A stretch of DNA of 64,000 nucleotides from Candidatus Uhrbacteria bacterium (lineage in GTDB: Bacteria; Patescibacteriota; Patescibacteriia; 2-12-FULL-60-25): assembly GCA_016222815.1 (NCBI GenBank), contig JACRQE010000006.1:1-64000 (forward strand). Reading direction: 5' to 3'. The translations under genes and the position numbers were made by a program. The notes below the pieces were generated by a model, which worked only from the letters and a program-made list of their open reading frames with translations, was not told where the DNA came from and ran no database searches. Positions 11,430-45,771 of this stretch are shown in pieces. Numbering within the stretch: the first letter of the stretch is position 1; each line of letters opens with the position of its first letter.

Positions 11430-12434
11430 ATGTTCGCAAAAAAAATCGGCATCGACTTGGGGACCACGACGGTCTTGGTTTATATCCCCAAGAAGGGCAT
11501 CGTTTTGAACGAGCCTTCGGTCGTGGCCGTGTCGTTGGCTGACAAGCGCGTTTTGGCCGTAGGCAAGGAAGCTAAAGAGATGTTGGGCAGGACGCCGGAC
11601 ACGATCGTGGCGCGGCGACCGCTCAAGGACGGTGTCATCGCCGACTACCGTACGACCGAGGCGATGTTGCGTTACTTCATCAACAAGGCGGTGGGCGGAA
11701 TGCGGTTGTTCAGGCCGGAGGTCATGGTCGCTGTCCCCGGAGGCATCACTTCGACCGAACGGCGCGCGGTCATCGACGCCACCATCTCGGCCGGCGCCCG
11801 CGCCGCATACATCATCAAAGAACCGGTCGTGGCTGCCATCGGAGCGGATATCCCGATCGGGTCGCCGTCCGGGCACATGATCATCGACATCGGCGGCGGC
11901 ACATCGGAAATCGCGGTCATCTCGCTCGGCGGTATCGTGTCTTCCGCGTCGGTCCGCATCGGCGGCAACAAGATTGACATGGCTATCCAGGAACACGTGC
12001 GGCGCAAGTACGGCCTGGCCGTGGGCGAACGGACGTCCGAAGACATCAAGATTCGAATCGGCTCCGCGCTCTATCTCGAAGAAAAGCTGGAGATGCAGGC
12101 CAAGGGACGCGACATGATCACCGGCTTGCCGCGCATCATCAGCATCACAAGCGACGATGTGACCGACGCCATCCAGCACGAATTGCAGGGCATCATCGAC
12201 GCGGTCAAAGACGTTCTGCATAACACACCGCCGGAACTCTCGGCTGACGTGATGGAAAAGGGGATGGTCTTGTCCGGTGGTACCTCGCAATTACGAAACC
12301 TCGACAAACTTCTCGCCGAAGCCACAGGCGTGCCGGCTTTCACGGCCGACAATCCGCAATTGTGCGTGGCCAAAGGCACGGGTATCGCGCTTGAGAATTT
12401 GGATTCGTACAAGAAGAGCATCTTTTCGTCATAA
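11430..12434 (+). CDS. mreB: Rod-shape-determining actin homologue MreB
   Basis: The 334-residue protein carries all actin-fold signatures: phosphate loop 1 (KKIGIDLGTTTVLVY), phosphate loop 2 (IDIGGGTSEIAVISLGG) and the adenosine motif (GMVLSGGTSQLRNL). Length is normal for MreB. It polymerises on the inner membrane face and directs lateral wall synthesis. I chose ATG 11430 over TTG 11421 because the protein then starts at MFAKKIGIDLG as in other MreB proteins. No mreC or mreD follows, unlike the usual mreBCD order, so partners must be elsewhere or absent. Confidence 0.93.
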   Translation: MFAKKIGIDLGTTTVLVYIPKKGIVLNEPSVVAVSLADKRVLAVGKEAKEMLGRTPDTIVARRPLKDGVIADYRTTEAMLRYFINKAVGGMRLFRPEVMVAVPGGITSTERRAVIDATISAGARAAYIIKEPVVAAIGADIPIGSPSGHMIIDIGGGTSEIAVISLGGIVSSASVRIGGNKIDMAIQEHVRRKYGLAVGERTSEDIKIRIGSALYLEEKLEMQAKGRDMITGLPRIISITSDDVTDAIQHELQGIIDAVKDVLHNTPPELSADVMEKGMVLSGGTSQLRNLDKLLAEATGVPAFTADNPQLCVAKGTGIALENLDSYKKSIFSS

Positions 12435-14977: not shown

Positions 14978-15032
14978 GATGTCGTCATTCTATTGATGAA
15001 CAAGCGGTGTGCAGCTGATGTATACTGCCGGT

Positions 15033-15917
15033 ATGGGATTATGTTTCAAAAAAACGACCAGAGGCATGGCGCTGGCATTTATTTTGCTGTCTTTGCCGGC
15101 CGCGGCTTTCGCGCATGATCCGCGGTTTGTTCGCGAGGAGAAAGTCGTGGAGGTGAGTAATCCGGAAATCTCGCAAGCATTTTATGGTTGGTTGGACGGC
15201 CAAGCCGTGCTGTACAAGATCAAGACCGATGTCCCGCAAGAGCTGTATTTTCAGTTGTTGGTGCCTGATGTGCCAGGAGTGATGACTGATTTGAAGGCCG
15301 AACTGAAGGCGCATGGGCCAGAAGGAGTGCAAACTTTTGTTTTGGACGGCGATAAAGCGAATTGGCAAAGGTGGTACGAAGAGTATGGCGGCGAATGGTA
15401 CCTGAAGGGTCCGGAGATGAGGCAATCCGTAGGTACCGGTACGCAAACGGTCTTTATCTCCAATGCGGATTTGTATGGGTCGTACGTTTTCGTGGTGGGC
15501 GAAAAGGAGGCTTTTCCGCTGGATAGGATGATTGCGACAGTAAAGCTGCTGCCTAAACTCCATCAGGAATTTTTCCTCAAACCATGGTACAGCTCGTTTT
15601 TCAACCGGATCGGCCTATTCCTGGCAGTACCGTTGATTATTCTCGCAGTCTTGGCCGTGGGTGCGTTCCTGCTGTATCGACACAGCCAGCAGCTGTTACG
15701 AAGAGCCATTTTGGTCTGCTTCGGTGGCGTGTTGGCGATTTTGGCGATTCTTGCTGTCCGTGACATGATTGGCGGCAACTGGTTAGGACGCGTCTCGGAT
15801 TTGGCTGTATTGTTCGCGTGCTTAGCAGGATTTACGGGTTTGGTTTGGGCTTGGGCAAGGACAAAACATCCGATACGACCGATTGAAGAGGAGATGACCA
15901 AGAACGACCAACCGTAA
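15033..15917 (+). CDS. Hypothetical membrane protein with N-terminal extracellular domain
   Basis: The 294-residue protein has a signal peptide (MALAFILLSLPAAAFA, cleavage near AFA-HD), an extracytoplasmic beta-rich domain of about 150 residues (DVPQELYFQLLVPD, FVLDGDKANW, GTQTVFISNADLYGSYVFVVGE), and three membrane helices at the C-terminus. No family recognised. A TATACT box at 15021-15026 places the transcript start at or next to the ATG, so the mRNA is probably leaderless, and no ribosome binding site is seen. Confidence 0.75.
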   Translation: MGLCFKKTTRGMALAFILLSLPAAAFAHDPRFVREEKVVEVSNPEISQAFYGWLDGQAVLYKIKTDVPQELYFQLLVPDVPGVMTDLKAELKAHGPEGVQTFVLDGDKANWQRWYEEYGGEWYLKGPEMRQSVGTGTQTVFISNADLYGSYVFVVGEKEAFPLDRMIATVKLLPKLHQEFFLKPWYSSFFNRIGLFLAVPLIILAVLAVGAFLLYRHSQQLLRRAILVCFGGVLAILAILAVRDMIGGNWLGRVSDLAVLFACLAGFTGLVWAWARTKHPIRPIEEEMTKNDQP

Positions 15918-17785: not shown

Positions 17786-18457
17786 ATGAATGATGATGGC
17801 AGCCAGCCCAAAGGAGCAGAAACGGAAACAGGCGATGCGGATCCTTCTTTCAGCACGGCGCTGATTTTTTTCCTGGTGTTCATTTTTGCCGTTTGGGACC
17901 TGAACATCCTCAATTCCAGGTGGCGCGTCGACTTGCCGATCGGCTGGCTGAACAAGTGGCTGTTCTTGGCGCTCATCCCGTATCTGCTCGCTACAGCCAC
18001 GGCATACCACAGGATATTCCCGAAATATTCGGATCACGCCTTCGTCTGGTTCAGTTGGGCCATGTTGGCCTTGCATCTGTCCAGTATCGTGGGTTTCCCG
18101 GCGTACCATGTCCGGAACTTCGGGTGGACCCACTACGACTGTTTCAGGGATCCGGAAATCTGGTCATCCCGCCATGGCGAAATGACCGGACGGATCAGCG
18201 GTCATCTGTGTGGCGATAAGCTTCTGAGGTGCGACGATTCGACTGCGGGTCACGTGAGCTTCGTGGTCATCGAGACGGATCCTCTGCTTTGGTACGAACC
18301 GCATTTCGCGGTCGATGAGGCGGAAAGCAGGGTCAGGGTAGCGAAAGTGGAGATGGGGCAGAATCCTCCCGCCATCGGCACCAGGGTCATCGTCGAAAGA
18401 CATGATTTTCCCGTCGGTCAGACGTTACCTCCCAGGGCATTCCGCGTTTTGCCGTGA
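17786..18457 (+). CDS. Hypothetical membrane protein
   Basis: About 223 residues from ATG 17786; the frame is open from 17756. After an acidic N-terminus come three membrane helices (ALIFFLVFIFAVWDL, WLFLALIPYLLATATAY, FVWFSWAMLALHLSSIVGF) and then a soluble C-terminal half of about 110 residues with an OB-like or beta-rich pattern (GHVSFVVIETDPLLW, ESRVRVAKVEM, GTRVIVERHDF). No family recognised. A terminator follows immediately. Confidence 0.7.
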   Translation: MNDDGSQPKGAETETGDADPSFSTALIFFLVFIFAVWDLNILNSRWRVDLPIGWLNKWLFLALIPYLLATATAYHRIFPKYSDHAFVWFSWAMLALHLSSIVGFPAYHVRNFGWTHYDCFRDPEIWSSRHGEMTGRISGHLCGDKLLRCDDSTAGHVSFVVIETDPLLWYEPHFAVDEAESRVRVAKVEMGQNPPAIGTRVIVERHDFPVGQTLPPRAFRVLP

Positions 18458-18508: not shown

Positions 18509-18515
18509 ATCATGC

Positions 18516-18521
18516 TATACT
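18516..18521 (+). promoter_or_regulatory. Extended -10 promoter (TGCTATACT) for a near-leaderless GT4 gene
   Basis: TG-C-TATACT ends 11 bp before the ATG at 18533, so the predicted mRNA leader is about 5 nt. No -35 consensus is present because the preceding terminator occupies that position. Confidence 0.6.
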
Positions 18522-18532
18522 TTTTGCCGAAT

Positions 18533-19660
18533 ATGCTTATCGGAATCGAGGCGACGCGAGCCAACAAAACCGCGAAAACGGGGGTGGAGTGGTATGCCTG
18601 GCACGTCATCCAAGAACTAAAAAGCTTGACCTTGAACGACGGGAATTCCTGGATCCTGTACTCCAATGCGCCGCTGGCCGGAGGGCTTGAGAAGCTGCCG
18701 GAGAATTGGTTCGAGGAACGGCTCAAATGGCCTCTGCCGTACGGCTGGACGCAGTTCAGGCTGTCTTGGGATTTGCGCAAACATCCGGTGGATGTGCTGT
18801 GGATGCCGGGCAGTACTTTGCCGCGCATCTTCCCGAAGAAGACCGTGGTCACGGTGCACGACGTGGGTTTCCACCACCTGCCAAAGCTCTACAAACCACG
18901 TCAGGTGCATATCCACGAGCAAGCCATGCGGGAGATCAAGAAGAAGGCGGCGCGCATCATCGCGGTCTCGGAATTCTCGGGACGGGACATCGCGGAATCA
19001 TACGGCATAGACCCCAAGAACATCGCCATCACTTATCCTGGAGTGGATTTCGAGACATACCATCCGATTACCGATGCGGCGGAGATTGAAGAGAGATTGC
19101 GCCGCTACCGCCTGTCGCAGCCTTTCTATATCTATGTCGGTAGGTTGGAAGCCAAGAAAAATATCGTGACGCTCATCAAGGCGTTCAGCCGGTTCAAAAC
19201 GCAACGCGGCGTGGGCGATCCGTTCAAGCTGGCTTTGGTCGGTGCACCGGGGTTCGGGTACGAAAACATTAAACGTGAAATAAATAATTCACCGGTAAAA
19301 TCCGATATCCTTGAACTCGGTTACGTGCCGGAAGCGGACAAACCATATCTATTGGCTGCGGCCGAGGCGTTAGTCCATCCATCGTTTTATGAAGGTTTCG
19401 GTATACCTCCAGTCGAAGCAATGGCATGCGGTTGTCCGGTGGTCTCCTCCAATGCTGCTTCTTTGCCCGAGATCCTGGGGGGCGCGGCGCTGTATTTTTC
19501 ACCTGAAGAACCTGAGCAACTGACGACCCTGCTCGATAAACTGGCGCAGGATTGGGAGACTAAAAATAAAATGAAGGAGATGGGCATCGAAAGGGCAAAA
19601 CGGTATTCCTGGAAATCCACAGCCCAGAGAACCCTTCCGGTCCTGACATCTTGGGGGTAG
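18533..19660 (+). CDS. Glycosyltransferase family 4
   Basis: 375 residues from ATG 18533 (MLIGIEATRANKTAKTGVEW, the usual start of this CPR GT4 group); an upstream ATG at 18512 lies inside the promoter. The GT-B C-terminal lobe shows FYIYVGRLEAKKNI and the catalytic/nucleotide-binding stretch HPSFYEGFGIPPVEAMACG. It transfers a sugar from an NDP or GDP donor to a glycan at the cytoplasmic face. The acceptor is unknown. The next gene, a TrmB regulator, starts 11 nt after its stop and may be co-transcribed. Confidence 0.9.
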   Translation: MLIGIEATRANKTAKTGVEWYAWHVIQELKSLTLNDGNSWILYSNAPLAGGLEKLPENWFEERLKWPLPYGWTQFRLSWDLRKHPVDVLWMPGSTLPRIFPKKTVVTVHDVGFHHLPKLYKPRQVHIHEQAMREIKKKAARIIAVSEFSGRDIAESYGIDPKNIAITYPGVDFETYHPITDAAEIEERLRRYRLSQPFYIYVGRLEAKKNIVTLIKAFSRFKTQRGVGDPFKLALVGAPGFGYENIKREINNSPVKSDILELGYVPEADKPYLLAAAEALVHPSFYEGFGIPPVEAMACGCPVVSSNAASLPEILGGAALYFSPEEPEQLTTLLDKLAQDWETKNKMKEMGIERAKRYSWKSTAQRTLPVLTSWG

Positions 19661-25163: not shown

Positions 25164-25769
25164 TCAAAGAGACCAAGACTCGAGCCAGGAACGCATCTGC
25201 TCGATTTCTGTTTCTTGAGCTTTGATAATATCTTGAGCCAGCTGTTTCATTTCAGGGCGATTCGTTCCCTGGGCAAGCATCTGGGCCATCATAACCGCCA
25301 TCTGGTGATGGGGGATCATCTCTTGCAGGAAAGCTTCATCAAAGTTAGTTGCGTCTTTAAGTGATTGAATGTCGGAAACAACGGTTCCCATAATCCCTCC
25401 ATGCATCATGCCGCGTCCCATGCCTATTCCAGCGTCGGGGTTGACCGGGATGGTGTTGCCGTACCACTTTTTGTACCACGATTGCATCTTGGATATTTCT
25501 TGGGATTGGCTCTGAATGATCGTCTCAGCAAGAGCCAGGATTTCCGGACGCTTGGAGCGTTCTTGAGCGAGTTTCGCCATCTCGATTGCGCCTTCGTGGT
25601 GCGGGATCATCTGTTCAATGAAGTGCCTATCCAGATTATCCGAACCGAAACCCATCATCCGCATCATGCCAAAATTGTTATCGTTGGACACGCTGGCCGA
25701 GAGCAAAAGGGTCAGAAAAATACCGACCAGCAAGCCCATTACGCCATAAAGAAATGATATATTTTTCAT
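25164..25769 (-). CDS. DUF305 family protein (ferritin-like, membrane-anchored)
   Basis: 201 residues from ATG 25769; a longer frame to 25838 adds residues without support. An N-terminal membrane anchor (FLYGVMGLLVGIFLTLLLSA) is followed by two DUF305 units, each with the hallmark MIPHH: HFIEQMIPHHEGAIEMAKLA and AFLQEMIPHHQMAVMMAQML. The family forms a four-helix bundle rich in His and Met and is often linked to copper or other metal handling; a role here is inference. Met-rich segments (GMGRGMMHGGIMG) fit metal binding. An extended -10 (TGTTATCAT, 25778-25783 on the minus strand) predicts a leader of only about 2 nt. Confidence 0.9.
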   Translation of the reverse strand: MKNISFLYGVMGLLVGIFLTLLLSASVSNDNNFGMMRMMGFGSDNLDRHFIEQMIPHHEGAIEMAKLAQERSKRPEILALAETIIQSQSQEISKMQSWYKKWYGNTIPVNPDAGIGMGRGMMHGGIMGTVVSDIQSLKDATNFDEAFLQEMIPHHQMAVMMAQMLAQGTNRPEMKQLAQDIIKAQETEIEQMRSWLESWSL

Positions 25770-25924
25770 ATACCACGATGATAACAGCCAAGCAGTGCGT
25801 GCTGCAATTATTTTTTCGGTCACGAATGGATGATCCATCAGATTTTACTGAAGATCCCGGCTCTAGGGCCGGGATGACAGAAGAGGTGGGGCCGCGACGA
25901 CGGTGGACATGCTACACTATGGTT

Positions 25925-30278: not shown

Positions 30279-31508
30279 ATGCGCATCCTGCACGTCAATA
30301 AATTTTTCGACCAGAGAGACGGCGTGGACATCTATGTCCATGAATTGATGCGGCGGCAAACGCTGGCCGGACACGAGACGCATATCCTGGCTACGCGTTC
30401 GCCGTGGAATGCGGCAACTCCGGATGCGCGGATATTCATTCGCCGGTACGACCTTTCGAAAAGCGAAGGGATCCTGAAGGATGCGCACAAAGCGATGAAT
30501 TTCCTCTGGAACCGCGAAGCGCGACGGGCCATGCGCCAGGCGATCGCGGAATTCAAACCAGACCTGGTCCATCTGCACAATGTCTACCATCACTTGTCGA
30601 CTTCGATATTGGCTGAGATCAGGTCGGCGCGCTTGCCCTGCGTACAGACGCTGCATGACTACAAGCTGGCTTGTCCGAATTACCGGATGTTCACGGAAAA
30701 CGCGACATGCGAACGCTGCAAGGGAGGGCACTACCACGAAGCGATCAGGCACCACTGCCTGTGGCCAACTTTTTCGGCCAATGCGTTGGGGGCGCTGGAG
30801 ATGGGTTGGGCCAAGGCTACGCAAGCATATGAGCGGACGGTCAAGATATTCGTCTGCCCTTCGCATTTCATGGCCGATAAGATGACGGAGTGGGGCGAAC
30901 CGCAGTCCAAGATGACGGTCATACCGAACGCGACGGAAATCACCGGAAAACAGGCTACACGCGATGGAGGTTATGTGCTATTCGCTGGGCGACTGGCTGT
31001 GGAGAAGGGTGCGGAAGTGCTGATCAGGGCGGCCGCGCGATTGCCCGAGATGAAAATCAAAATCGCGGGTACGGGATCGGATGAAACGCGATTGCGGCGG
31101 TTGGCCGAGGAACTCAATGCAAAGAATGTTTTGTTTTTGGGGTTCGTCAAGCGGGCGGAAAATCTTGAACTTTGGGAGCGCGCCCAAGCCCTGATTGTCC
31201 CTTCAATCTGGTATGAGAACGCGTCCATCGCGGTCTTGGAAGCCATGGGGCAGGGTTTGCCGATTTTGGCTTCACGCATCGGAGGTTTACCTGAACAGGT
31301 GGTCGATGGTGAAAACGGATTGTTGATCGAGCCTCGTAGCGTCGATGCCTGGGAGCAGGGACTTAGGAAGTTCATGTCGCTGGCCGAGTCCGATCGGGAA
31401 GCGATGGCCTCGGCTGCACGGCGGCGGGCCGAGGAGCTATTTGCCTGGAGCGGACATTTAGATAGACTGGAGGAAGCGTATCAATCGGCAATGGGGATTC
31501 GGGATTGA
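30279..31508 (+). CDS. Glycosyltransferase family 4
   Basis: The 409-residue GT-B enzyme has N-terminal MRILHVNKFFDQRDGVDIYV, an acceptor-lobe stretch with a Cys cluster (TLHDYKLACPNYRMF, CERCKGGHYHEAIRHHC), the nucleotide-lobe VLFAGRLAVEKGAEVL and the conserved PSIWYENASIAVLEAMGQGLP. The Cys-containing insertion is common to a WcaL/exopolysaccharide subgroup. It lies 11 nt behind the fusion gene and is probably in the same operon. Confidence 0.88.
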   Translation: MRILHVNKFFDQRDGVDIYVHELMRRQTLAGHETHILATRSPWNAATPDARIFIRRYDLSKSEGILKDAHKAMNFLWNREARRAMRQAIAEFKPDLVHLHNVYHHLSTSILAEIRSARLPCVQTLHDYKLACPNYRMFTENATCERCKGGHYHEAIRHHCLWPTFSANALGALEMGWAKATQAYERTVKIFVCPSHFMADKMTEWGEPQSKMTVIPNATEITGKQATRDGGYVLFAGRLAVEKGAEVLIRAAARLPEMKIKIAGTGSDETRLRRLAEELNAKNVLFLGFVKRAENLELWERAQALIVPSIWYENASIAVLEAMGQGLPILASRIGGLPEQVVDGENGLLIEPRSVDAWEQGLRKFMSLAESDREAMASAARRRAEELFAWSGHLDRLEEAYQSAMGIRD

Positions 31509-31533
31509 CTTTTCGGCGATTTTCTGCTAGTTT
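31505..31533 (+). promoter_or_regulatory. Promoter giving a near-leaderless mRNA
   Basis: TTGACT (31505-31510), 17-bp spacer, extended -10 TGC-TAGTTT (31528-31533). The ATG at 31543 lies about 3 nt after the predicted start site, and no ribosome binding site is present. Confidence 0.7.
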
Positions 31534-35217: not shown

Positions 35218-35526
35218 TCAGATTTTTCCACCTTCAGGCGGACGCGGGGAAAATTTTACGTTTTTGATTTTCCATTGGTCGACCCATTGGCCGATGCCGC
35301 GACCGTCACGTTTGTTCCTGACCGTAGTGGTGCGCTGCGACCAGGTCACAAGCGATCCGAAGTGGATTTTATACCTGCCTCTGACGACTATGTATCGGAT
35401 TTCCCCGGCAGTGATGGCACGGCGGATTGTCCGTTGATGGATGCCGAATAAATTGGCGGCTTCAGATATTGAAACCCGGAGAGCTTTCTCATCCGAGTCT
35501 GAAGACGCTTTTTGGTCAAAAGCCAT
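35218..35526 (-). CDS. Small helix-turn-helix (excisionase/MerR-like) DNA-binding protein
   Basis: The 102-residue protein has a clear helix-turn-helix in VSISEAANLFGIHQRTIRRA followed by a small wing (GEIRYIVVRGRYKIHFGSLVTW), the arrangement of excisionase-like domains. The remaining C-terminus is basic and may help bind DNA. A consensus promoter and a 20-bp dyad overlapping its -35 box lie just upstream, which suggests autoregulation. It ends 8 nt from the converging gene's stop. It could also control the sigma factor gene that diverges from it. Confidence 0.82.
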   Translation of the reverse strand: MAFDQKASSDSDEKALRVSISEAANLFGIHQRTIRRAITAGEIRYIVVRGRYKIHFGSLVTWSQRTTTVRNKRDGRGIGQWVDQWKIKNVKFSPRPPEGGKI

Positions 35527-35535
35527 ATCTTCTTG

Positions 35536-35564
35536 AGTGTATTAAAGGATTTGGTTTTTGTCAA
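35536..35564 (-). promoter_or_regulatory. Promoter of the HTH gene
   Basis: On the minus strand TTGACA (35559-35564), 17 bp, TACACT (35536-35541). The ATG at 35526 is 9 bp from the -10, giving a leader of about 3 nt. Confidence 0.8.
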
Positions 35565-35739: not shown

Positions 35740-36312
35740 ATGGCTAACCTCATAGACAGATATCATTTGTTCCGTCTGCGGACCAGACGGGATCCAGAAG
35801 CGTTCGCTCGCATTTATGACCGCTATGTTGAGGCTATTTATCGTTTTTCAATACTGAAATTACCCAGCAAAGAGGATGCCCAAGATGTGACGGCTGAAAC
35901 CTTCACGCGCGCGTGGCAATACGTCTACGAACATAAGGAAATCACCAACATAAGGGCTTTGCTTTATCGAATCGCCAGGAACCTGATTGCAGATAAATAC
36001 CGCCAGTCCGAACCGGTCGTATCATTGGAGACTGTAACGTTTACTGCTGAAGGAACGTCTTATCTTGCACGAGGGCAAGAACCGGGCGATGGACAGAAGG
36101 GCAAAGAGCTGATTGAGGCCAGGGCAGATATGGCGCTAATCATCCAAAAGCTAGGCACCCTGAAAGAAGACTATCGGGATGTCCTGACCCTGCGTTTGAT
36201 AGACGGATTGTCGTTCGGCGTCATAGCCGAGATCCTGGAAAAGAAACCGGGAAATGTGAGAGTCATGTACCATCGGGCGTTAAAAGCAATCAAACAAAAC
36301 GACGAGCGGTAA
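35740..36312 (+). CDS. ECF-type RNA polymerase sigma factor
   Basis: The 190-residue protein has sigma region 2 (FARIYDRYVEAIYRFSILKL, DAQDVTAETFTRAWQYV) that binds core polymerase and the -10, a short linker, and region 4 (LKEDYRDVLTLRLIDGLSFGVIAEILEKKPGNVRVMYHRALKAI) with the helix-turn-helix for the -35. There is no region 1 or 3, as in group 4 (ECF) factors. The DUF5667 gene begins 20 nt downstream and is the likely partner. The target may be the surface-layer operon that follows (inference). Confidence 0.92.
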   Translation: MANLIDRYHLFRLRTRRDPEAFARIYDRYVEAIYRFSILKLPSKEDAQDVTAETFTRAWQYVYEHKEITNIRALLYRIARNLIADKYRQSEPVVSLETVTFTAEGTSYLARGQEPGDGQKGKELIEARADMALIIQKLGTLKEDYRDVLTLRLIDGLSFGVIAEILEKKPGNVRVMYHRALKAIKQNDER

Positions 36313-36331: not shown

Positions 36332-37456
36332 ATGAGCAAAGAACTACGCATAAGGTTGCGCGAACTGCGGACCACGAATAAAAACATCACTCCCGATAAG
36401 GCGTGGGTTCGGGCTACGCGAGAAACCTTGATGATGCAGGTGCGCAACACTTTACCGGCTGAAGGCAAGGCTTCCTTTTCCGACAGGTTCAAATTCAGCG
36501 TGCGCTACATTTTGCCGCAGAATGCCATCCGCTGGGTGACCCGTCCGATGATGGCCGCGATGTCCGTCGTCATCGTCCTAACGGGCGGATCGATCATGTC
36601 GGTTTCAGCTGCGGAACAGTCGTTGCCGGGCGACATGCTGTACGGCCTGAAGCTTGCGACCGAACAGGCGCGATTGGCCATGACGCCTGCCAAGGAAGAC
36701 AAGCTGAAGCTCAAGACGGAATTTACGGGCCGCCGCGTCGAAGAATTGAAGAAGGTCGCGGTGTCGGACCAAAAGACGGAAAAGGTGGCGCAGGTCGCTG
36801 AAATACTCAAACGGGATTTGAACACCATGAAGGAACAACTGGCGGACGTGGCCAGCGAGTCTTCGGCGGATAAAGCGGTTGAAGCGGCTAAGATGGTGGA
36901 CCAGAAGTCCAATGAAGTCATAACAGCATTGCAAGGAGCGAAGGACCAGTTGTCGCCGGAAACCAAAGAAAAGGTGACGGAAGCCCAATCCGCAGCTGCG
37001 GATACCGGTGTCAGCGCCCTGCAGGTCTTGGTAGAAAACCATCAGAAGGATAGCGGATCGGTGACTGCTATAGATGTGGCGCAGGCTTTGCAGGACCATG
37101 CTAAGGTCGTGACCGACGCAACCACTGCGCCCGCGAGTTTGAATATCCTTGTCAGCGCATCTTCGACCGCAACTACGACGACGGTCCTGGTCGATTTGAT
37201 GGCGACTACCACGGCTTCGACCACTTCGGAGTCGCTGCCCGGTTTGGTCACCCAAGTCAAGGATGCGACGACCCAGGCTTTTGTCCTGCAGAAAGCGTTA
37301 GACCAACTTGAGATCACGGAATCGAATGTTTCCGGCACCGAAGATGTCGCGACTACGACCGATCAAACCCAAACGGTGTCGACCGGAACCGCTGCGGATT
37401 TGATTACCGGCAGTAAAACAACCACCACCAGCTCAACGCTGAAGCAAGATAAGTGA
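36332..37456 (+). CDS. DUF5667 membrane protein, probable anti-sigma-like partner
   Basis: The 374-residue protein has a cytoplasmic N-terminus of about 70 residues (SKELRIRLRELRTTNKNITPDKAWV), one membrane helix (MMAAMSVVIVLTGGSIMSVS) and then AEQSLPGDMLYGLKLATEQARLAMT, the DUF5667 hallmark. A long helical region and a Thr/Ser-rich tail follow outside. The pairing with an ECF gene and the single-helix layout fit an anti-sigma or sensor role, as suggested for DUF5667 neighbours in CPR and actinobacteria. No HCC zinc motif is seen in the N-terminus. Confidence 0.82.
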   Translation: MSKELRIRLRELRTTNKNITPDKAWVRATRETLMMQVRNTLPAEGKASFSDRFKFSVRYILPQNAIRWVTRPMMAAMSVVIVLTGGSIMSVSAAEQSLPGDMLYGLKLATEQARLAMTPAKEDKLKLKTEFTGRRVEELKKVAVSDQKTEKVAQVAEILKRDLNTMKEQLADVASESSADKAVEAAKMVDQKSNEVITALQGAKDQLSPETKEKVTEAQSAAADTGVSALQVLVENHQKDSGSVTAIDVAQALQDHAKVVTDATTAPASLNILVSASSTATTTTVLVDLMATTTASTTSESLPGLVTQVKDATTQAFVLQKALDQLEITESNVSGTEDVATTTDQTQTVSTGTAADLITGSKTTTTSSTLKQDK

Positions 37457-37761
37457 CGAAAAACTTATCTTTCGTCTTGCAGGGTGGCTGTCCTCCTCGG
37501 GAGAGCCTCCCTGACGGGCGGGGGATGCACCACGGACCGTTCGTACGCCTTACGGTGTTCCGACGGGACGGGGTAAGCAGTGATCGCCAAAAGCGATTGC
37601 CGACCCACACGTCCGCTCGTTTGCACAAAATATGCCTGGCCAGAAAAGTCGACTCCCGGCAACAAACCGGGTTGGGTCACGGCGAATTATTCAGTAAATT
37701 TCGGTGCAGCGGATTCGTCATGGATCCGCTCACAAGTCAGAAACAACCCGCAAGGGTTCTT
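37457..37761 (+). promoter_or_regulatory. Long structured leader upstream of the surface-layer gene
   Basis: This 305-nt interval has no convincing gene, although the frame of the next CDS stays open through it. It contains several hairpins: GACGAAA/TTTCGTC at the start, CTCC-TCG-GGAG, TCGC/GCGA, CCCGG/CCGGG near 37661-37673 and CGGAT/ATCCG near 37719. The stretch around 37516 (GGGCGGGGGATGCACC) recalls the conserved GCGGGGGA block of c-di-AMP (ydaO/yuaA) riboswitches, but the rest of that consensus is not obvious. I treat it as a candidate cis-regulatory RNA only. Confidence 0.35.
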
Positions 37762-40700
37762 ATGAACAACACACTTAAAAAGGTCTTCTCGACGTTCGTG
37801 TCCCTGACCACGATCGCCTGGTCCGTCGGTATCGGTACGTTAGTCATGCCCAGCATGGCTTCCGCCGCCAGCATCACGGCCGGTGATTTGATCAAGGCTT
37901 CGGGCCCGTCGGTGTACTACTACGCCGCGGACGGAAAGCGCTACGTTTTCCCGAACGAAAAGACGTATTTCTCCTGGTATAACGATTTCTCGGGTGTCAA
38001 GACGATCACCGACAGCGAGCTCGCCGCAATCTCCATGGGCAGCATCAACGTCACGATCCGCCCGGGAACCAAGCTCGTAAAGATCACGACCGATCCTAAG
38101 ACGTATGCGGTCACCCTCGGTGGCCAATTGCATTGGATCGAATCTGAAGCTGTAGCTAAGGCCCTCTACGGAGATGCCTGGGCGACACGCGTCGTTGACG
38201 TACCGGATGGTTTCTTCGGAAACTACACCATCGGTTCGTCGGTTTCCACCAACGTCCATCCGGACGGCACGGTCATCATGTACGCCGGCGACACCGCCAA
38301 GTACGTCATGGCTAGCGGCGTGAAACGCAAATTCAACCCGGATTCGGCTTACGCAGCCAACGGTTTCAACCCGCTGAACGCCATCACCACGACCATCACG
38401 TATGGTAATGGTACGGATGTCTCGGGTCGCGAAGGTGCATTGGCTGATGTGATTTATGTAGCTGGTGGTCCGGTCGTGGGCGGCAACCTGACGGTTGCTT
38501 TGGCCTCCGACACGCCGGCTGGGATGAATGTCCCGCGGAACGCTTCTTCCGTGCCTCTCGTGAAGGTCAACTTCATGGCTGGCTCGGCGGATGCCACGAT
38601 CAACGGTCTGCGCTTCCATCGCGTGGGCGTTGGTTCGACTTCCGACTTCTCGAACATCTACCTGTATGACCAGGACGGCAATCGCTTGACGACCGGTCGC
38701 AGCATCAACACCACGACCAACATCGTGGAGTTCAATGCTTTGACGATCACGGTCCCGGCAGGCGGCATGAAGTCCGTTTATGTCTACGGTGATTTTGCTG
38801 GGGCTGCGGCTCAGGTCGGCGGCCAGCATTCCTTCGAGGTCATGGATGCTGCTTCAGTCATCATGTCCGGAACAGGCACCATCTCCGGTTCCTTCCCGGT
38901 CCGCGGCAACGTGTTCACCGTCGGTACGACATCGGCTGCCCAGGTCGATTTGCAGAAGGGATCACAGCCTTCCAATCCGACCATCGGCTCCAAGGAAATC
39001 GAAGTCTCGAACTTCAAGGTCACTGCTAACACCAATGACATCAGTTTGAGCCAGGTCACCTTGTACCAGGCCGGTTCGGTCACCAATTCGGACTTGACCA
39101 ACTTCAAGCTGTTCCAGGGCTCCACGCTCGTAGCTACGGCTGCCGGCGTCTCGTCCAATGGCCACATCGTCTTGAAGTTCAGCCCGGCGTTCACCATCAC
39201 GAACGGCACGACCAAGGTCTTCTCTTTGAAGGCTGACGTCGCCGGTCGCGCTGGCCGCACCATCCGCACGTACGTCGAATACTCGACGGATGTGTCAGCG
39301 ATGGACTTGAAGTACAGCTCGGGTGCCTCGATCAACATCGCCACGGCACCGGCCAACTTCGACGGCACAGGCACGAACTACATCGAGGTCACGACCCAGG
39401 GCGGTCAGTTGACCAACTCCTTCAACGGTCCGGCTACGTCCAACGTCGCCAAGGGCCAGCTCGGAGTTGCGCTCTACAAATTCGCCTTGACGTCACCGGA
39501 TAACACGCTCGAGATCCGCAACTTGCGCTTCTCGATCGACAACATCACGGGCGCTCCTTGCCGCTTGTACGGCACGGGCGGAACCCCGACGGCTTACTTC
39601 CGCAACGTCAAGATCAAGAACATGGACAACGGGCAGACCTGGATGGGCCCCAAGGAATTGAGCACATCCGGTTCGAACGCCTCGCAGTCCTTCGTCTTCA
39701 CGGATTCCCAGAACATCACGGCCGGCCAGACCATCAACTTGGCCCTGGTCGCTGACCTGGCGAGCTCTGAAGATGCGGCTGGCGAATTCTTCGGCAATGG
39801 CACCTGCCAATACCGCGGTTCGTTCGCTGCCTTCCAAACCAACGATGTCCGCGTAGTGGATACGGGCGAATTCTTGGATGTCGCCAAGATCGTCCCGAAC
39901 CAGGCGGTCAACGGCAATCCTCTGACCATCAAGAGCTCGCGGCTCAACGTGTCGCTGGCTTCGAACCCGGTCTCGGGAACGCTGGTCAAGAAGCAACAGA
40001 ATGTCCCGGTCGCCGGCTTGAACCTCTCATCCTCGGCTGAATCGGACATCACCATCACCAACCTGACGCTCGCTGGCCAGGCGGCTCTCGCCACCTCGGG
40101 CTGCGCGTTCGGCGCTGGTGCTTGCGCGGTTGCGAACTTCTCGCAACGCGTGACCTCGCTCGCCCTGTTCGACGGCGCGACGCAGGTCGGTCTGGCCAAA
40201 GCCCCGGACACCACGACCGGCAAGGCCCAGATCTCGAACATGAACTTGGTCATCCCCAAGGGCACGACCAAGAACCTGACGATCCATGCCTCGTTCTCGT
40301 CAACAGCTTCAACGACGTCGCCTTACGACAAGATTGCCGTCGGTATCGCTTTGACAACGGATATCCAGGCTCAGGATCAGGACTCCAACACGGTCACGCC
40401 TAACCTGGACACGGCTGTCAGCAACCAGTCCACGAATGCCGCCCCGTCGGTTGTCCAGACAATCCTCAACAGCGGTTCGCTCACCATCCAGGCTGACGCT
40501 CACCCGGTGTCCAACATCGTGGTGGCAGGCAAGGATGCTTGGGTCCCGATGGCCCAGTACAAGGCTACGGCCCAGTACGAAGTCGTCAACATCGATCGCT
40601 TAGCGGTATTGGCCAGCTCCACGTCCGGATTGGTCGCCGATAACGCCGACTACGCCATGGTGGCAGTCGCGTCCAACGGTGCAGTCAAGGGCATGGACAG

Positions 40701-41685
40701 CTTGTCCGCTGGCGCCACAGGAACCAAGGATATCGACCTTACGACCAACAACATCGTTGTGCCGAAGGACGGTTCCGTGCAGTTCCAATTGTGGGCCAAA
40801 TTGTCGGCCGTCCAGGCTTCCGGTTCAGTTGGTGGCGCCACGACTGGCGTCTCCCGCTCCGGTCACGCCCCGGCCCTCGGTCTGATGAGCTCATCGACCG
40901 GTTCCGAATGGAACATCGCCGATTACGGCTATGGTTCGAAGCTCAATGTCCGCTCCACTGGCGCGGCTTCGGGCGAACGCATCTACGCCGCCACTGGCGC
41001 TGCCCATGGCAACATCATGGTGCTCCGCAAGACACAGCCGATCGTGACCAAGCAGTCGCTCTCCTCGACGACCCTCGCCAACATCGACCAGGATCTGGTC
41101 AAGTGGCAGGTGGCCGCCGACAGCGCCGGTTCGGTCGCTTGGAAGCAGGTCATCTTCAGCTTCTCCAAGTCGGCAGCGGTCGCACTCTCCAACTTCCGCT
41201 TGCGCCGCGGCGCCACGGATCTTGACACCGCCGTGTACTCGATCAACAACGGCACCACGACTATCGACCTCTTGACCGGCAGCCTCGGGGCTGGCGTGAA
41301 CAGGGGTTACATCGTGGTCTCCATGAAGCCCGGCCAGGAAGAATCCATCTCGGGTTCGGGCAATGTGTACACCCTGCATGCCACGGTTTCCGGTGCGGCT
41401 TCGGGCCAGAACGTCACCTTGTCGTTCTTGCGCGATTCGACCAACCCGGTCGTGACAGGCTACCTGGCGAACGGCGCCTTCGGCGTGTTCGTCAACAACA
41501 CCAGCATCTTCCACATCGACACAGGCGTCTCGCCGACAGCAGCCGCTGCCACGGGCACCTTCGTGTGGGCTGATAACTCCGAAGTGCCGCATTCCTCGGC
41601 CCTCGGAACCGCCGGTGGTTCGCGCGATTGGACCAACGACCTGTACGTACAGGATCTGTCCCAGTCGCAGACCCTCAGCCTGTAA
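37762..41685 (+). CDS. Giant surface-layer-like protein
   Basis: 1307 residues from ATG 37762, with an AAGGG site. The signal peptide is MNNTLKKVFSTFVSLTTIAW continuing to PSMASA. The N-terminal 230 residues (YYYAADGKRYVFPNEKTYFS, TVIMYAGDTAKYVMASGVKR) match the conserved start of large CPR surface proteins as I know them. The rest is a run of beta-sandwich repeats rich in Thr, Ser, Asn and Ala with very few Cys. No membrane helix or sorting signal ends the protein. Codon use is strongly C-ending (AAC, ATC, GAC), as expected for a highly expressed gene. A structural S-layer role is inference. The next gene, a ligase-like protein, may glycosylate it. Confidence 0.85.
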   Translation: MNNTLKKVFSTFVSLTTIAWSVGIGTLVMPSMASAASITAGDLIKASGPSVYYYAADGKRYVFPNEKTYFSWYNDFSGVKTITDSELAAISMGSINVTIRPGTKLVKITTDPKTYAVTLGGQLHWIESEAVAKALYGDAWATRVVDVPDGFFGNYTIGSSVSTNVHPDGTVIMYAGDTAKYVMASGVKRKFNPDSAYAANGFNPLNAITTTITYGNGTDVSGREGALADVIYVAGGPVVGGNLTVALASDTPAGMNVPRNASSVPLVKVNFMAGSADATINGLRFHRVGVGSTSDFSNIYLYDQDGNRLTTGRSINTTTNIVEFNALTITVPAGGMKSVYVYGDFAGAAAQVGGQHSFEVMDAASVIMSGTGTISGSFPVRGNVFTVGTTSAAQVDLQKGSQPSNPTIGSKEIEVSNFKVTANTNDISLSQVTLYQAGSVTNSDLTNFKLFQGSTLVATAAGVSSNGHIVLKFSPAFTITNGTTKVFSLKADVAGRAGRTIRTYVEYSTDVSAMDLKYSSGASINIATAPANFDGTGTNYIEVTTQGGQLTNSFNGPATSNVAKGQLGVALYKFALTSPDNTLEIRNLRFSIDNITGAPCRLYGTGGTPTAYFRNVKIKNMDNGQTWMGPKELSTSGSNASQSFVFTDSQNITAGQTINLALVADLASSEDAAGEFFGNGTCQYRGSFAAFQTNDVRVVDTGEFLDVAKIVPNQAVNGNPLTIKSSRLNVSLASNPVSGTLVKKQQNVPVAGLNLSSSAESDITITNLTLAGQAALATSGCAFGAGACAVANFSQRVTSLALFDGATQVGLAKAPDTTTGKAQISNMNLVIPKGTTKNLTIHASFSSTASTTSPYDKIAVGIALTTDIQAQDQDSNTVTPNLDTAVSNQSTNAAPSVVQTILNSGSLTIQADAHPVSNIVVAGKDAWVPMAQYKATAQYEVVNIDRLAVLASSTSGLVADNADYAMVAVASNGAVKGMDSLSAGATGTKDIDLTTNNIVVPKDGSVQFQLWAKLSAVQASGSVGGATTGVSRSGHAPALGLMSSSTGSEWNIADYGYGSKLNVRSTGAASGERIYAATGAAHGNIMVLRKTQPIVTKQSLSSTTLANIDQDLVKWQVAADSAGSVAWKQVIFSFSKSAAVALSNFRLRRGATDLDTAVYSINNGTTTIDLLTGSLGAGVNRGYIVVSMKPGQEESISGSGNVYTLHATVSGAASGQNVTLSFLRDSTNPVVTGYLANGAFGVFVNNTSIFHIDTGVSPTAAAATGTFVWADNSEVPHSSALGTAGGSRDWTNDLYVQDLSQSQTLSL

Positions 41686-41956: not shown

Positions 41957-42027
41957 TTGATGGAGGATGGGTTCGGTAGGTTGGGATGTTGATTTATTGG
42001 GTTCTGGTGTCCGAGTATGACCCGTGC

Positions 42028-42033
42028 TATGCT
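42028..42033 (+). promoter_or_regulatory. Extended -10 promoter for the ligase/TPR gene
   Basis: TG-C-TATGCT ends 11 bp before the ATG at 42045, with the same spacing as the GT4 promoter at 18516-18521 and a nearly identical following sequence (TTTTGCC). No ribosome binding site is present. Confidence 0.6.
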
Positions 42034-45653: not shown

Positions 45654-45771
45654 ATTTAGGGATAACATAGCTAAATCTCGCGTTAAAAACAAATGAACCT
45701 GGGCGCGAAGTAAGCGAAGGGCTTTACAGGAGTTGGTTTTTATCTTCAAATGGCTAAGTTCGCCTAACATT

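Follow-up and report, generated by a model that had tools for sequence, protein, structure and literature searches.

Genes whose -10 box lies so close to the start codon that their mRNA is leaderless, known as TA-led genes, have been described across bacteria (Zheng et al. 2011, PMC3160421). Deinococcus and mycobacteria commonly produce leaderless mRNAs (PMC9031893, PMC4633059), and in archaea such messages have been defined by a 5' leader "shorter than 8 nucleotides" (PMC10783764). TM7 is absent from the text of the 2011 TA-led survey (PMC3160421), and Patescibacteria, which make up a very large share of bacterial diversity, have hardly any transcript maps. Here we analyze a window comprising positions 1 to 64,000 of contig JACRQE010000006.1 from a Candidatus Uhrbacteria bacterium, in which the original prediction had placed eight genes lacking a Shine-Dalgarno (SD) sequence behind extended -10 promoters, with leaders of 0-6 nt. 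Judged from sequence, sigma-70 extended -10 promoters very probably abut the starts of such genes and would produce leaderless or nearly leaderless mRNAs whose AUG is found without an SD, with a U immediately before it (U-1) in short-leader and SD-less operon-internal genes.

The genome (1.30 Mb, 98% complete, 8 contigs) was sampled over 464 kb, including 400 kb beyond the window. Genes were called by coding potential alone, upstream signals being ignored, and those less than 20 nt after a gene on the same strand were treated as operon-internal and excluded from the non-operon set of 299 genes. The distance from the -10 box to the transcription start site (TSS) is usually 6-7 nt, and leader lengths were estimated on that assumption.

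An expectation-maximization search of the 299 non-operon genes, run with no position prior and seeded with 400 random 9-mers from the data, returned TGCTATACT as its top motif in 19% of them, with a log-likelihood of 68 against at most 22.5 in shuffles. TGN directly precedes TANNNT in this de novo motif, the G (96%), T (97%), A (96%) and final T (96%) are strongly conserved, and position 5 of the hexamer is often C. The sites cluster at -23 to -15 before the ATG and drop from 4.9 at -15 to 0.3 at -14. This edge implies a minimum gap of 6 nt between the -10 box and the start, the closest that lets the transcript hold the whole ATG and hence the limit that leaderless transcription requires. Position weight matrix hits per position likewise number 0.33 at gaps of 0-5 nt, 3.9 at 6-14 nt and 0.76 further upstream.

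The comparison with shuffled controls suggested in the original prediction shows a clear excess in the 464 kb, where TGNTANNNT lies near the start in 29 of 299 genes versus 2.2 in shuffles (maximum 8 in 300). TANNNT is enriched 11-20 nt before the start in this sample and TGNTANNNT at its expected position. Among the 25 non-operon genes of the window, TGNTANNNT falls at a 6-14 nt gap in 4, where dinucleotide shuffles give 0.26 (never above 3 in 1000), and TANNNT does so in 10 versus 3.4 (maximum 8). None of the 90 Escherichia coli genes processed with this caller carries the near-start motif, and 46-62% have an SD. Genes with a near-start extended -10 almost exclude an SD, which is found in 1 of 35 compared with 56 of 264 others (p=0.006). 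The genome encodes one protein with sigma-70 region 3, the housekeeping sigma factor; an additional small sigma factor lies at window positions 35740-36312.

It could be argued that these TA-rich boxes are AT-rich translation signals, acting for example by binding ribosomal protein bS1 or by loosening structure around the start. In other phyla, the AT-rich bias at -20 to -10 has been proposed to act in this way (PMC5397173), and an open frame of 371 residues in the genome contains four S1 domains. However, the motif TGNTATAMT, in which G, TA and the final T hardly vary, is that of a sigma-70 extended -10, and its hard edge falls exactly 6 nt before the ATG. Moreover, it occurs in just 2 of 98 operon-internal genes, which need translation signals too (TANNNT was not taken as promoter evidence in operon genes, as stop codons (TAA) inflate its counts). 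Some sites also have a -35 element at 17 nt, and -35 matches in the near-start set modestly exceed shuffles. A translational role in place of promoter function is thus very unlikely.

Conservation among orthologs also speaks for promoters next to the start (genes are named here by the window position of their start codon). In 21 of the 29 aligned orthologs of 18533, TGNTANNNT is present at a gap of 5-14 nt (exactly 6 nt in 13); the DNA further upstream is unrelated, and many have in-frame stops close upstream. For 42045, 15 of 18 aligned orthologs have TGNTANNNT at a gap of 9-14 nt and every one of these has T at -1; an SD was found in 0 of 47 orthologs of these two genes. The near-start boxes of 25925, 31543 and 35526 are kept in several relatives. 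Across the wider phylum, sampled as 40-60 kb from each of 22 other Patescibacteria genomes, the near-start motif appears in many; pooled non-operon hits number 20, 14 and 9 at gaps of 6, 7 and 8 nt, and at most 3 per position at gaps of 0-5 nt.

These alignments bear on a second alternative, that the promoters are real and the starts misplaced, with use of a downstream ATG yielding ordinary leaders. The coding-potential caller did favor in-frame ATGs 33 nt past 15033 and 30 nt past 25769, which leaves these two starts supported by the promoter and, for 15033, by a signal-peptide n-region and one relative. On the other hand, the alignments of 18533, 42045, 45653 and 31543 with their orthologs begin at the named start or near it, the gaps being similarly short, and wrong starts would not give a genome-wide edge at 6 nt, making this explanation as improbable as the first. 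Chance is the least credible alternative: TANNNT is common enough for boxes near ATGs to be expected in a gene-rich 64 kb window, and shuffles give 35 among the 299 genes (maximum 53), but 88 were observed, along with the TGNTANNNT excess and boxes conserved in orthologs. Chance and misplaced starts were both rejected for the set as a whole on the shuffle excess, the edge at 6 nt and the orthologs; a lone site such as 25769 could be due to chance.

All eight -10 sites named in the original prediction are present (Table 1), with 6-11 nt between the box and the ATG and predicted leaders of 0-5 nt, and none of the genes has an SD-like run at -15 to -8. Their description as extended -10 promoters applies to five; TG is absent at 15033, 35526 and 45653. 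The interval 18512-18535, quoted for the glycosyltransferase promoter, does contain that promoter but opens with an in-frame upstream ATG at 18512 that lies inside it; the true start is 18533, as 29 orthologs align from its first residue.

Table 1. Promoter elements next to the eight gene starts, and an associated palindrome (window positions)
Feature	Position	Strand	Gap to ATG (nt)	Gene (start)	Predicted leader (nt)
-10 TATACT	15021..15026	+	6	15033	0
Extended -10 TGCTATACT	18513..18521	+	11	18533, family-4 glycosyltransferase (Pfam)	~5
Extended -10 TGCTACACT	25910..25918	+	6	25925, O-antigen ligase-like	0
-35 TTGACT, 17 nt spacer, extended -10 TGCTAGTTT	31505..31533	+	9	31543, GHL15 family	~3
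Extended -10 TGCTATGCT	42025..42033	+	11	42045, O-antigen ligase/TPR	~5
Extended -10 TGTTATCAT	25778..25786	-	8	25769, DUF305	
-35 TTGACA (35559-35564), 17 nt spacer, -10 TACACT (35536-35541)	35536..35564	-	9	35526, HTH_17	
-10 TATGTT	45664..45669	-	10	45653, glycosyltransferase	
Palindrome TTTTGTCTACACCTGTGTTGACAAAA	35556..35581	-		35526, overlying its -35	

Individual support varies among these genes. Relatives of 25925 (L139, L140 and L145) have TG-type -10 boxes near the start. Two relatives of 31543 (L201 and L207) keep TTGAC and TGCTA or TGTTA near the start, and two others (L202 and L203) carry TGCTAAGTT. For 45653, three relatives (L335-L337) carry the block TATGTTAACnnTAAATATG at an identical gap of 10 nt, and most close orthologs of 35526 have a TTGACA-like -35. 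The weakest single cases are 15033 and 25769. The former has a sole close relative (G002), which shows TATACT 6 nt before an ATG at the matching start. The latter belongs to a DUF305 gene (25164-25838, minus strand) with no ortholog among the 22 other relatives searched, and its start therefore lacks independent confirmation; the gene was possibly acquired. The palindrome at 35526 has a core, TTGTC-N-GACAA, that is also present upstream of at least 12 relatives, and because of this conservation it is probably an autoregulatory operator of the HTH_17 gene.

The base preceding the ATG differs with the kind of start. T occupies -1 in 22 of 24 short-leader genes (gap 8-14 nt) versus 1 of 43 strong-SD genes, 63% of which have C (Fisher p=2e-14; p values from this test assume independent genes and, orthologs being related, are guides only). 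Leaderless genes (gap 5-7 nt, n=11) have C in 6, T in 4 and G in 1, and operon-internal genes without an SD have T in 80%. The pattern recurs in two pooled sister genomes, with T at -1 in 11 of 14 short-leader, 1 of 11 leaderless and 5 of 58 strong-SD genes and in 62% of SD-less operon-internal genes. Even among orthologs of 18533 the base follows the gap, with 14 C and 3 T at 5-7 nt and 3 T and 1 G at 8-14 nt. In 80 loci from relatives, T stands at -1 in 67% of 990 genes and SD frequency is at background (0.06 vs 0.07); in E. coli non-operon genes T at -1 reaches 29%. Strong-SD genes shun T at this position in both the genome sample and the sister genomes, favoring C. Genes less than 20 nt from a preceding gene have SD at background and begin with TATG or CATG, often 1-6 nt past the stop codon (TGATATG, TAATATG).

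A candidate initiator tRNA is encoded at L007:4330-4405 of the same genome, with A37, a C1:A72 mismatch and the anticodon loop CCCATAA. Its A37 makes a fourth base pair, to U-1, possible. It is the only tRNA found with the initiator-like C1:A72 mismatch; C33 replaces the usual U33, and A29:U41 stands where a G:C pair is expected, unusual features for a bacterial initiator tRNA. A G at +4 that could pair with C33 was looked for in the genes and not found. The tail of the 16S rRNA retains CCTCC, and this intact anti-SD agrees with the use of SD by a minority of genes.

The original prediction envisaged two coexisting modes of initiation. SD and SD-less starts do both occur, and within the window genes 366, 15983, 17031, 20724 and 22649 carry GGAG or GGAGG at SD distance, but we read the pattern as three modes: a 5'-terminal AUG, U(-1)AUG without an SD (in genes that are operon-internal or have short leaders), and SD. 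More tentatively, in a proposal that could well prove wrong, these may be mutually exclusive devices, consisting of the 5'-terminal AUG set by an abutting promoter, a UAUG making a four-base-pair contact with initiator tRNA, and the SD, with U-1 as the main signal wherever an SD is missing, including re-initiation in operons.

The most likely sequence of events begins with sigma-70 RNA polymerase reading an extended -10 (TGNTATAMT), the -35 being usually weak or absent. The first transcribed base would be the A of the ATG or lie up to ~8 nt before it, giving a leaderless or near-leaderless mRNA. With gaps of 6-7 nt, the 5'-terminal AUG is probably bound by ribosomes loaded with initiator tRNA. 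The -1 base would lie outside these mRNAs, and C-1/A+1 would fit the preference of a transcription initiator. In short-leader and SD-less operon-internal messages, U-1 may add a base pair to A37 of initiator tRNA, and a separate minority of genes would start by SD.

The claim that extended -10 promoters yield leaders of 0-8 nt is supported by the motif search, the shuffles, the E. coli control, ortholog conservation and the near exclusion of SD. Several points weigh against this interpretation. The 5' ends and the mode of translation of these genes are predicted from sequence, and gene starts come from our own caller and from orthologs. Genes with a near-start -10 may also have a second promoter further upstream that gives a longer leader. 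The extended -10 occurs in a minority of genes (35 of 299 at the scoring threshold applied), the -1 classes are small (n=11, 24 and 43), and the U-1 preference could serve a step other than tRNA pairing.

The surroundings of these genes are typified by abundant surface-polysaccharide and glycosyltransferase genes. MreB (11430-12434) shares 93% identity with a Patescibacteria bin and 87% with Ca. Uhrbacteria UCB1, its best 80 matches coming mainly from Uhrbacteria, Magasanikbacteria, Falkowbacteria and other Patescibacteria. Pfam gave no match for the 1410 aa open frame (37453-41685, plus strand) that follows the small sigma factor (35740) and a DUF5667 gene, and Rfam gave none in the window. 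ARAGORN calls two adjacent tRNAs with four-base anticodons (ggct and ggtc; L011:18267-18342 and 18363-18436); their anticodon loops may be enlarged, or the calls may be artefacts.

If this arrangement holds phylum-wide, SD-reliant gene finders would misplace starts, and expression tools for Patescibacteria should adopt leaderless or UAUG designs. The -1 rule also offers a clean and cheap test of the old idea that U before AUG aids start choice by initiator tRNA without an SD.

The genes described here resemble TA-led genes (PMC3160421) and the leaderless mRNAs of Deinococcus and Mycobacterium in having TANNNT or a -10 box ~10 bp before the start, in lacking an SD (all but 1 of 35) and in standing first in their transcription units. 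As in TA-led genes, the -10 distance in the gap histogram and in orthologs would place the TSS at the start codon or directly beside it. They differ from TA-led genes, which PMC3160421 does not report for Patescibacteria, in having an extended, TGN-bearing box and, in short-leader genes, T at -1. With sigma-70 extended -10 promoters they share, genome-wide, TGN directly before a TATAAT-like hexamer and a weak or absent -35, but here the TSS would fall on or beside the start codon and C is frequent at position 5 of the hexamer.

The U-1 preference recalls an extended codon-anticodon interaction between U-1 and A37 of initiator tRNA, reportedly described by Esposito et al. 2003 (cited in PMC9841429). 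The UAUG start context is common to both, T at -1 exceeds background in the genes concerned and the candidate initiator tRNA has A37; here the preference is a genome-wide rule limited to SD-less leadered genes, and the pairing itself is putative. Many genes lack an SD, as in the SD-independent initiation of Bacteroidetes (PMC3155529). Unlike in Bacteroidetes, a clear SD minority coexists in this genome (0.21 of first genes vs a background of 0.06), and what marks the starts is T at -1, not a general lack of SD. No report of leaderless genes in Patescibacteria or of a -1 rule was found in the literature searched, coverage of which was partial, and prior reports are possible. We therefore file the promoter-start arrangement as one of a known kind, and the three-way split of start signals as provisionally new.
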